Of a stretch of DNA of 33,642 bases, positions 3,706-28,011 are shown piece after piece. The first letter of the stretch is position 1. Every line of letters starts with the position of its first letter. The stretch covers positions 1 to 33,642 of the forward strand of contig JANYDM010000135.1 in NCBI GenBank assembly GCA_025363575.1, given 5' to 3'. Position numbers and translations under genes: made by a program. The notes under the pieces were generated by a model. The model worked only from the letters and a program-made list of their open reading frames with translations, was not told the origin of the DNA and did no database searches. Source of the DNA: Betaproteobacteria bacterium (GTDB lineage Bacteria; Pseudomonadota; Gammaproteobacteria; Burkholderiales; SG8-41).

Positions 3706-4551
3706 TTACGAGGGCGACCTGGCGAGATAAATTACGCTGGCTCCGCTGCGGGCGCCGTGCTTCTTTGTCGCCGCGGCTGCGCGCCGATAACTCGCCGATC
3801 CCGACGAAGCGACGCGCTGATAGCTGACTGCCCCGGCCGCCGACGATACAGCGCGTTTGTAGCTGATCATGCGTGTAGAGGCAGCGTGCCGGTAACCGGA
3901 CGACTCCGCCGCGGGGAGGCCATTGCGAAAACGCTCGTAGAACTTCAGCACTTTCGGCACATAGGCGATCGTCTCGCGATAGGGCGGAATGTGGTTGCCG
4001 TATTTGATGACGGCCTGCTCGCCTGCGTTGTAAGCGGCGACGGCAAGGCGCACGTCCTGGTTGAACATTTGCAGCAGGTCGCGCAGGTAGCGCGCGCCGC
4101 CATGAATGTTCTGCCCGGGGTCGCGCGAATCCGTGACGTTATAGCGGCTGGCGGTTTCGGGCATCAACTGCATCAGGCCGACGGCGCCCGTTCTTGAAAC
4201 CGCGTAAGGATTGTTGCCCGATTCGGCCGTGATCACCGCGCGGATCAGCGCGGCATCAATATTGTTCGCCGTCGCCGCCGCCTGAATGTGGTCTGCATAA
4301 GGCGCTTGGCTGTTCACCGCGAAGCGCTGCGGCGCGGGCGCCGGCTCTGCGCGGACAGCGGCCGGCGTTTCTTTGATTACGACTTCCCAGCGCCCTTCGG
4401 CGGGCGGCGTGTTGGTATAGACCGGCGGGTTGCGATCGAGGCTGCGATAGATATCGGCTTGCACCGCGCCATTGAGCAGCATCGACGCGGGCAGGGCGAT
4501 CAGGGTCAGCAGCGCGCGGGATTTATTGATGACGGGCAAAAAATTCAACAA
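3706..4551 (-). CDS. lytic transglycosylase, SLT (GH23) domain
   Basis: About 281 residues. An N-terminal hydrophobic export segment precedes a short DUF4124-like stretch (A-D-I-Y-R-S-L-D near residue 33). The SLT domain covers about residues 84-210. Catalytic Glu110 lies in I-T-A-E-S-G-N-N-P, followed by G-A-V-G-L-M-Q-L-M-P-E-T-A and A-A-Y-N-A-G-E-Q-A. This enzyme class cleaves peptidoglycan between MurNAc and GlcNAc to give 1,6-anhydro ends, in the periplasm. The start appears to be TTG, at 4551 or one codon in at 4548. An AGGAG site at 4556-4560 favours 4548 slightly by spacing. The C-terminal tail carries three degenerate S-Y-(K/Q/R)-R repeats and is basic, perhaps a cell-wall-contacting tail. 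Confidence 0.88.
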   Translation of the reverse strand: MLNFLPVINKSRALLTLIALPASMLLNGAVQADIYRSLDRNPPVYTNTPPAEGRWEVVIKETPAAVRAEPAPAPQRFAVNSQAPYADHIQAAATANNIDAALIRAVITAESGNNPYAVSRTGAVGLMQLMPETASRYNVTDSRDPGQNIHGGARYLRDLLQMFNQDVRLAVAAYNAGEQAVIKYGNHIPPYRETIAYVPKVLKFYERFRNGLPAAESSGYRHAASTRMISYKRAVSSAAGAVSYQRVASSGSASYRRAAAATKKHGARSGASVIYLARSPS

Positions 4552-26782: not shown

Positions 26783-26810
26783 GGCCGTATCGGCAAATCC
26801 TGGAGGCAGT

Positions 26811-27365
26811 ATGCTTGCATTCAAATCTCAATTACGCACGGTGGCTGCAGCCGCGCTCGCGTCAATGGCGTTAGGCGCGTCCGCCGCTGAGCTTCCCCCG
26901 CTGCCGGCGGGGCTCACAGCGCCGGCCAAGCCGGCCCACCTGCCGGATTTTAATCTCGCGAAACCCGAGAGCGGCAGCGTTCGCGCGAGCGATTTCAAAG
27001 GTAAAGTGATGATCGCGAGGTTCTGGGCAACCTGGTGAGACATCTGCGTCGGTGAGATGCCCTCCGTGCAGAGGGCACATGATGAATACAAAAAGAGCGG
27101 CGTTCCCGTGCTGGCGATTTCCATCGACGGTGACGGCGCCAAGTCGGTAAAACCTTTCCTGGCCGAGCACAAGTACACGCTGCCCGTTCCACTCGATCCG
27201 GACATGGCAGTCGCGCGCGCCGTCGGCGTGCGAGTAACGCCATGGACGGTGATTTTCGACCGCGGCGGCAACGTGGTCGCGGGCGGCTATGGCAAGATCG
27301 AGCTCGGCAGCCCCGAATTCAAGGCTTACATCAAAGCGCTCGCCGCCACGCCGCCGGGCAAATAA
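26811..27365 (+). CDS. exported TlpA/thioredoxin-like selenoprotein (in-frame TGA as Sec76, U-x-x-C)
   Basis: 184 residues if TGA at 27036-27038 is read as selenocysteine. A signal peptide of about 26 residues ends A-S-A-A. The thioredoxin-fold core is V-M-I-A-R-F-W-A-T-W, then TGA, then D-I-C-V-G-E-M-P-S. The active-site C-x-x-C of TlpA-like proteins is thus U76-D-I-C79. After the TGA the same frame continues through V-L-A-I-S-I-D and the cis-Pro loop V-T-P-W-T-V-I-F-D to TAA at 27365, with no frameshift. Cys79 is the only Cys. GGAGG lies 4 bp before the ATG. A simple hairpin follows the TGA (27058-27077). Probable role: periplasmic reductant for the peroxiredoxin encoded next. Annotation pipelines would end it at residue 75. 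Confidence 0.85.
27058..27077 (+). promoter_or_regulatory. candidate bacterial SECIS hairpin for the thioredoxin-like gene
   Basis: TGCCCTC (27058-27064) pairs perfectly with GAGGGCA (27071-27077), giving 7 bp around loop CGTGCA. The loop begins 27 nt after the last base of TGA (27038) and has G at its second position. Known bacterial SECIS elements have a short stem, a G near the loop start and lie about 16-37 nt after the UGA. Those features fit; the folding was done by eye. Confidence 0.6.
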
Positions 27366-27429
27366 CGGCGGGGCGGACGCAACTGGCATTGACGTTCATT
27401 TTGCAGCATCGACAAAAAGGGAGGTTCGC

Positions 27430-28011
27430 ATGCAATCGAGACGATGGAAAATGCAGGGATGGAGAAGCGCGCTGGCTGCGGCGTTAGTAGCCGGATTGGG
27501 TCTGTTCGGCAGTGCCGCACACGCAATCGACGTTGGCGCCAAGGCGCCGGATTTCGCGTTGATGTCGACGACCGGCAAGGAAATCAAGCTCGCCGATTTC
27601 GCGGGCAAAAAGGCCGTTGTCCTGTTCTTCTACATCGGCGCGTTCACCAACACTTGAACGCAGGAAGCGCTGGCCTTCCAACTTGATCTTCCCAAGTTCG
27701 AAGCCGCGAATGCCCAGGTCCTGGGCATCAGTGTCGACTTTAACGATGCGAACAAAGCATGGGGCGACAAGCTCGGGCTGAAATTTCCGCTGATGACGGA
27801 TCTCCGCCGCGAGATGATACGTGCCTATGACGTAATCAACGATGACCCCACCGCGGCGAACGACACCAAGCGTATTGCGACTTACCTGCGCGCGAAACGT
27901 TCATGGTTCGTCATCGACAAGAACGGCACCATCGTTTATGCGCGCGTCACCGATCCGCGCGGTCTCGTCCCTAACGACGAGATACTCGAGGTGCTCTCGA
28001 AGCTGAAGTAG
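27430..28011 (+). CDS. exported AhpC/TSA-type peroxiredoxin selenoprotein (in-frame TGA as Sec76)
   Basis: 193 residues if TGA at 27655-27657 is read as selenocysteine. The signal peptide is M-Q-S-R-R-W-K-M then A-L-A-A-A-L-V-A-G-L-G and ends A-H-A near residue 32. The peroxiredoxin core reads V-V-L-F-F-Y-I-G-A-F-T-N-T, then TGA, then T-Q-E-A-L-A-F-Q. The peroxidatic Cys of T-x-x-C is thus Sec76 (T-U-T). The frame continues through V-L-G-I-S-V-D, F-P-L-M-T-D and W-F-V-I-D-K-N-G-T-I-V-Y to the end. No Cys codon is present, so it is a 1-Sec type enzyme needing an external reductant. GGGAGG is upstream of the ATG. It lies 64 bp after the thioredoxin-like gene. Confidence 0.86.
27672..27705 (+). 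promoter_or_regulatory. candidate bacterial SECIS hairpin for the peroxiredoxin gene
   Basis: AACTTG (27680-27685) pairs with CAAGTT (27693-27698), extended after a C-C mismatch by CTTC (27675-27678) with GAAG (27700-27703), and GG/CC beyond a bulge. The loop is ATCTTCC, starting 29 nt after the TGA. It lacks the G at the loop start seen in most bacterial SECIS elements unless the closing G-C pair opens. A nearer 5-bp hairpin (27663-27679) has G in its loop but lies too close to the TGA. So the structure is strong and the consensus fit imperfect. Confidence 0.5.

Follow-up and report, generated by a model that had tools for sequence, protein, structure and literature searches.

A cysteine-based pathway for peroxide reduction in the bacterial envelope, ScsB-TlpA-PprX of Caulobacter, was reportedly described by Cho et al. 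in 2012. Passages of PMC5403849 trace the route in Caulobacter crescentus from ScsB to TlpA and on to PprX. Selenium-containing proteins of both soluble kinds are known as well. Selenocysteine (Sec) peroxiredoxins with a TxxU active site appear in passages of PMC13188914 and PMC9312934, and a tally excerpted from PMC5029168 gives 91 such proteins in 78 organisms, placing peroxiredoxins below formate dehydrogenase and SelD, the two commonest bacterial selenoprotein families in it. Peroxiredoxin-like, TlpA-like and redoxin selenoproteins with a UxxC site are listed in the same passages of PMC13188914, which also name selenoprotein operons: grdA-grdB, prdB-prdC, frhA-frhD-hdrA, SAO and Tso, together with operons joining a peroxiredoxin to a SELENOW-like protein and a peroxiredoxin-like to an AhpD-like protein.

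Here, we describe two adjacent genes, for a TlpA-like protein and a peroxiredoxin (Prx), each with a TGA at the catalytic codon. They lie in a window, i.e., the whole stretch of 33,642 nucleotides that was analysed, from contig JANYDM010000135.1 of a Betaproteobacteria bacterium. Our preferred reading, to which we give a probability of about 0.78, is that they form a conserved selenoprotein operon in which the Sec-Prx is recycled by the UxxC TlpA in an envelope peroxide relay. As in Caulobacter, a periplasmic thioredoxin-like TlpA would take electrons from a membrane transporter and deliver them to a peroxiredoxin; unlike the Caulobacter pathway, the window pair is predicted to have Sec at both catalytic residues, its Prx has no resolving Cys and its genes stand without a transporter gene, and the likeness to PprX is one of description. 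The window Prx resembles the known TxxU enzymes in belonging to the AhpC/TSA family and in having U as its peroxidatic residue with T at −3, but differs from them in being exported (as judged by eye), in being paired with a Sec TlpA and in lacking the usual Pro at −7. The TlpA is, like known UxxC selenoproteins, a thioredoxin-fold protein of the AhpC-TSA/Redoxin/TlpA group; it is set apart by its WATWUDIC-type motif, by a Prx neighbour in all testable loci and by scores below the listed NCBIfam cut-offs. The arrangement shares with known selenoprotein operons at least two selenoprotein genes side by side, but none of the operons named in the passages of PMC13188914 is a Prx and TlpA pair. The TxxU Sec-Prx, the UxxC TlpA/redoxin-like selenoprotein and the selenoprotein operon are thus known kinds, and what appears new is their exported pairing. 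No description of a Sec-Prx and Sec-TlpA pair was found in the open-access literature searched; a prior description may exist, a 2025 article by Haft and Tolstoy, which by its title is said to treat selenoprotein neighbourhoods, falling outside that literature.

Layout and conservation of the gene pair

The two genes and their signals are laid out in the window as follows:

26802-26806, + strand: GGAGG, seen in the sequence; likely ribosome binding site of the TlpA gene
26811-27365, + strand: TlpA-like ORF, 184 aa read with TGA as U; motif FWATW-U-DIC (ATWUDIC)
26811-26885, + strand: likely Sec-type signal peptide of TlpA, residues 1-25, ...ALGASA; judged by eye
27036-27038, + strand: TGA codon 76 of the TlpA-like gene; predicted Sec76, first position of C-x-x-C
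27420-27424, + strand: GGAGG, seen in the sequence; likely ribosome binding site of the Prx gene
27430-28011, + strand: Prx ORF, 193 aa read with TGA as U; motif FTNT-U-TQE (TNTUTQE)
27430-27525, + strand: likely Sec-type signal peptide of Prx, residues 1-32, ...GSAAHA; judged by eye
27655-27657, + strand: TGA codon 76 of the Prx gene; predicted Sec76, peroxidatic position

The ORFs are separated by 64 nt, and a single internal TGA is all that interrupts each of them; coordinates, motifs, gap and the single TGA per frame were all part of the original prediction, and a re-reading of the sequence bears them out. Both proteins are probably exported, to judge by eye from their signal peptides. The flanking ORFs (named by eye), a cupin-like one upstream and a convergent MmgE/PrpD-like one downstream, are both oriented opposite to the pair, so the unit comprises two genes. 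The tandem operon proposed from the window alone is accordingly supported as a conserved one-strand, two-gene unit, the window copy apparently bounded by these two ORFs. TGA terminates 13 of the 24 window ORFs picked as likely genes; UGA is therefore a normal stop here, in agreement with the earlier claim. Within the window, a tRNA scan found no tRNA-Sec, an Rfam scan matched no family and a sigma-70 scan detected no promoter; terminator-like sites numbered 2 vs 1.9 expected.

Relatives were collected by a TlpA-first scan of the genome collection with a pattern that fixed the peptide and left the codons degenerate; at least 80 stretches were reduced to 28 loci, and further loci may exist. Among these listed matches, 25 of the 28 loci have TGA at the TlpA codon, with titles nearly all of Betaproteobacteria or Burkholderiales and one of Chitinophaga pinensis. 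Three (L025, L026 and L028; titles Terriglobales, Acidobacteria and Verrucomicrobiales) have TGT or TGC, and no Prx match was found near them. A TGA Prx lies directly downstream in 23 of the 25 listed TGA-TlpA loci; in the remaining two, the contig ends 162 nt (L010) and 184 nt (L017) past the TlpA stop, and the respective genomes, G009 and G016, have a TGA Prx on other contigs. With the window included, the codon is TGA in 26/26 TlpA and 24/24 Prx genes. Their frames continue to a stop ~104-117 codons past the TGA, free of the decay in close relatives that the original prediction had named as evidence against it. Across 22 pair tests dN/dS was always below 0.4, spanning 0.00-0.38 before the UGA, a short part in which some tests have dS above 1, and 0.02-0.24 after it. 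Retention of TGA in every copy, with constraint on both sides, is beyond chance, and the view that chance errors or decay were unlikely causes has held.

The linkage recurs in other searches. Starting from the Prx, a TGA TlpA was present at 10 of 10 loci from 10 genomes, four of them new. In the family of G001, a Prx match at E <= 1e-28 (weaker matches being left out of the list) occurs in 45 of 74 genomes, and each of the 46 matches has exactly one TGA; 20 were fetched from new genomes (17 orthologues and 3 diverged), 25 lie in genomes examined before, and a partial match in G331 at a contig edge was left out. At 16 of the 17 new orthologue loci a TGA TlpA is found 539-570 nt away on the same strand, while the contig ends at L052; the linkage misses across all tests are L010, L017 and L052, each at a contig edge. 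A class-wide search found the Prx in 0/368 genomes besides G001 at E <= 1e-28, and the plasmid collection gave no Prx match at E <= 1e-30, so the pair looks lineage-restricted. Selenium use is kept while identity to the window proteins falls to 38% (TlpA) and 55% (Prx), TGA being present in all 46 rows of the TlpA alignment and all 46 of the Prx alignment.

By eye, TlpA and Prx protein trees of the 28 loci have their main clades in common, L011 and L014 being placed differently. Naive ORF clusters around the loci yielded no constant third partner: they consist of flanks specific to clades, shadow ORFs arising from the two genes, and many ORFs of ~300 aa that form one family, receptor-like by eye, and sit in varied places, in L002 and L004-L007 just upstream on the same strand. 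Isolate RYN_557 has two operon copies (L001, L002) on different contigs, representing either a true duplication or a mixed bin. Four metagenome-bin loci (L004, L006, L016 and L024) are titled Chitinophaga pinensis or Bordetella parapertussis, and their proteins group with uncultured betaproteobacterial loci; these titles seem wrong and unreliable.

Selenocysteine machinery and SECIS-like hairpins

The original prediction had proposed a search for selA, selB, selD and tRNA-Sec elsewhere in the genome, and all four are found in relatives. Scores above cut-off were obtained for selB in 23/24 genomes (the exception, G014, has two partial selB-like matches near contig ends) and for tRNA-Sec in 23/24 (in the exception, G013, part of a selB lies close to the end of a contig); selA is present in 26/28 genomes (not found in G002 and G014) and selD in 28/28. 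The main selD copy itself contains one in-frame TGA in all 28 genomes. Order-wide, 12 of 300 genomes encode the Prx (>200 bits, the next match scoring 80 bits), each with one TGA, and all 12 are among the 83 that encode selB (hypergeometric P = 1.1e-7, kinship uncorrected).

Bacterial SECIS (bSECIS) elements are defined in passages of PMC13188914 by a loop of 3-9 nt, an upper stem of 4-16 bp, a spacing of 16-37 nt, a G in the first two loop positions and MFE <= −7.5. A candidate follows the UGA in each gene:

27058-27077, + strand: SECIS-like hairpin of TlpA, UGCCCUC-CGUGCA-GAGGGCA; loop 26 nt after the UGA
27672-27705, + strand: SECIS-like hairpin of Prx; apical loop ~27-28 nt after the UGA

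The TlpA hairpin agrees with the definition throughout: its loop, CGUGCA, has 6 nt with G second, the stem has 7 bp, the spacing is 26 nt, and the MFE of the 63-nt stretch is −16.1 kcal/mol. Over 46 rows (45 distinct), 98.1% of 315 cells are paired, compensatory changes occur at 3 of 7 pairs (17 cells, of which a single pair accounts for 15), and none of 500 shuffles reaches the covariation score. The helix is kept while the protein changes, with Ser for Pro, Lys for Arg and Thr for Ala in L040 and Ala for Ser in L055, and the hairpin codons TCC GTG CAG AGG are identical in 26/26 genes vs expected pair identities of 0.23-0.72. Folded alone, the hairpin is unexceptional (z −1.34; 23/200 shuffles as stable).

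The Prx hairpin fits in spacing, stem and MFE (−19.0 for its 63-nt stretch), with a loop of 7 or 9 nt and an upper stem of 6 bp (5 with the closing pair open), but the loop-G rule holds only when the closing G31-C39 pair opens. The check for bacterial SECIS elements proposed in the original prediction thus gives a full match for TlpA and, for Prx, one that depends on this opening. In the Prx hairpin, 92.5% of 468 cells are paired and 7 show double changes; 0/500 shuffles reach the covariation score, and 131/500 contain at least as many doubly changed pairs. Pairs 18-51, 20-49 and 30-40 are each broken in 11/39 distinct rows, and the register of the outer stem is, by eye, shifted by one in some rows. 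Sliding the structure by +2 gives 26 double-change cells vs 7, but just 33.5% of cells are then paired; since the structures were derived from the same sequences, this slide control is biased in their favour. Stability of the hairpin folded alone is modest (z −2.03; 7/200 shuffles as stable), and codons are most strongly conserved past the hairpin, at +19 to +24, with those inside it (+9 to +14) ranking lower among the top eight windows. Covariation argues strongly for the TlpA hairpin and more weakly for that of Prx.

At the level of sequence, these comparisons establish that codon 76 is kept as UGA in both genes, with selection on both sides and a hairpin behind it, clear in TlpA and fair in Prx. 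From the conserved UGA, the hairpins and the sel genes of the relatives we infer insertion by SelB and tRNA-Sec at both sites; that Sec is inserted at both UGAs is close to certain on this evidence.

Active sites, structure models and database entries

The TlpA-like protein matches Pfam AhpC-TSA/Redoxin and has a thioredoxin fold with a CxxC-type site before helix 1 (U76-D-I-C79; helix 77-94), and TP at 143-144 occupies the cis-Pro position. Its AF2 model (pLDDT 90.5) is nearest to 3kcm and Bradyrhizobium TlpA (4txo/1jfu); in this model, the fold, the CxxC-type site and the cis-Pro loop are those of a TlpA/ResA-like protein in which Sec would replace the first Cys. UxxC is present in 46/46 rows, L057 having one extra Cys. 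All 10 NCBIfam models listed for TlpA score it below their cut-offs (WAxxUGC_long: 49.6 of 300 bits).

The Prx scores 117.8 bits against Pfam AhpC-TSA (cut-off 26). Its model is of middling quality (pLDDT 72.8), with Bcp4 and the 1-Cys Prx AhpE as nearest folds; these closest solved structures (AhpE, 4x1u/1xvw; Bcp4, 3hjp) are 30-40% identical and among the best sequence matches. AhpE, a 1-Cys peroxiredoxin, and Bcp4 have Cys where the window Prx would have Sec, and neither is known to carry a signal peptide. There is no Cys in the window Prx, and 45/46 rows lack another Cys between the 40th residue ahead of U and the C terminus (L008 has one). The T of the T-x-x-U peroxidatic motif is present at −3 in 46/46 rows. 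Peroxiredoxins usually carry Pro at −7 as well (motif PxxxTxxC); this canonical Pro is absent, residue −7 (residue 69, window 27634-27636) being I, V or T in 46/46 TGA rows and I, L, V or F in 26 Trp rows, vs Pro in 4 Cys rows. Even without it the fold assignment stands, and by its sequence the Prx is a distinct subgroup.

L041-L045 also encode a second peroxiredoxin (at ~4000-4470; 1077-1508 in L045) with the motif PFAFTGGU, TGA at the peroxidatic site and no visible signal peptide; similar TGA matches occur in genomes of the order without the exported pair, e.g., G124, G081 and G230. This second protein keeps Pro at −7, so loss of that residue is not a rule for Sec enzymes.

Protein databases represent the pair poorly. 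Among the best 120 of 280 Prx relatives, 89 are fragments of 106-116 aa that start behind the TGA and 31 have at least 164 aa; in these full-length proteins among the matches listed, the residue at the site is Trp in 26 and Cys in 4, and one protein lacks the motif. In the best 120 of 417 TlpA relatives, the 60 listed entries closest after the window's own (P0124-P0183) have 101, 102 or 109 aa and all begin with MPSVQ, i.e., at the Met seven codons behind the TlpA UGA, and the full-length relatives shown have C-x-x-C. Gene callers therefore appear to halt at, or read through, the conserved UGA, and, with the closest listed entries mostly 101-116-aa fragments or proteins with active-site Trp, the pair is widely mis-annotated.

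Such entries are also what would be expected if the TGAs were sequencing errors or marks of pseudogenes and the full-length proteins were never made. The same codon is, however, TGA in tens of separate assemblies, and the frames continue to the stop under dN/dS below 0.4 after the TGA in 22/22 tests; this reading, rejected on recurrence and purifying selection, is extremely improbable. The Trp forms (26/31) would similarly suit a UGA read as tryptophan or by general suppression instead of as Sec. P0034, however, equals the product of the L022 gene except for W at the position where the L022 DNA has TGA, which makes at least this W a product of the translation setting (the other 25 Trp entries are known as protein only); UGA ends more than half of the picked window ORFs, homologues have Cys at the site, and Sec-specific machinery (in relatives) and hairpins are present. 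We put the chance of Trp decoding or suppression at next to nothing. An alternative code with UGA as Trp was rejected because of the UGA stops in the window.

Cys-containing homologues, which the original prediction had proposed to seek, were found for both proteins: the assignment of the TlpA TGA to the first Cys of C-x-x-C agrees with the full-length relatives shown, and that of the Prx TGA to the peroxidatic Cys with the four full-length relatives that carry Cys there. Since Cys occurs in 4 of the 31 full-length Prx relatives among the matches listed, selenium is not indispensable. In the tree, these four join a clade with L012, L037 and L046 (100/99), the Cys group being weakly supported (62/57); the placement hints at a later switch from Sec to Cys.

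A proposed electron relay in the cell envelope

With a single redox residue, a peroxidase depends on a reductant from outside. The constant neighbour of the Prx is a UxxC reductase, seemingly in the same compartment (signal peptides by eye), and, since the Prx lacks a resolving Cys, we propose that resolution is performed by the active site of TlpA. In the proposed mechanism, SelB and tRNA-Sec would insert Sec at codon 76 of TlpA and Prx. The exported Prx would use Sec76 of its TxxU motif, its only redox residue, to reduce peroxide, yielding a selenenic acid that the partner UxxC TlpA would resolve through its active site; the second UxxC residue would then free the reduced Prx, leaving TlpA oxidised, and a membrane transporter of the DsbD/ScsB type would re-reduce TlpA with cytoplasmic electrons. 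A DsbD_TM match is found in 26/28 relative genomes (not in G024 and G159), DsbD and ScsB being undistinguished by it. Running from transporter to TlpA to Prx, the scheme would be a counterpart, built on selenium, of the ScsB-TlpA-PprX pathway for envelope peroxides in Caulobacter, and transfer of electrons from TlpA to Prx is probable.

Three diverged loci (L047-L049) show a related arrangement. Each encodes an exported TGA Prx (motif LDFTPT-U-I-K/Q-ELS), followed after 6-41 nt by a TlpA with Cys, i.e., in the gene order opposite to the window pair and with mixed Sec/Cys use; the Prx/TlpA pairing thus recurs, with TGA kept at the peroxidatic site. The stretch behind the UGA folds well in L047 (z −2.4) and not in L049 (z −0.5).

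Both genes could instead encode real selenoproteins that are co-expressed against a common stress, with TlpA serving another client and Prx being reduced by a small thiol. Partnership in an operon may reflect a common need, not contact; the best TlpA fold matches include mixed-disulfide complexes with ScoI (4txo) and cytochrome subunit II (4txv), TlpA relatives act in cytochrome oxidase assembly, and AhpE, a related 1-Cys Prx, had been exposed to mycothiol before crystallisation (5id2). The client might then lie in cytochrome c maturation, or be a metallochaperone or a damaged envelope protein. We consider this arrangement, with any of these clients, unlikely: Prx and TlpA are paired in all testable loci, the Prx is devoid of a resolving Cys in nearly every row, and the separate exported pair of TGA Prx and Cys TlpA in reverse order suggests a working pair.

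Within the preferred reading, the envelope peroxide relay, the Prx selenenic acid may be resolved by the Sec of TlpA, via a transient inter-protein diselenide or selenenylsulfide, a version whose prospects we regard as evenly balanced. If it is true, the pair would be a peroxidase of two proteins that passes electrons from one Sec to another, maintained as a pair by selection in an uncultured lineage of Betaproteobacteria, and the active site of its Prx would be remodelled and lack the usual proline at −7. Selenium would then serve both members of a likely electron relay in the oxidising cell envelope. The pair makes it testable how a peroxiredoxin works without its active-site proline and, with selenium kept despite the divergence of the proteins, why two selenium sites in series repay their cost.
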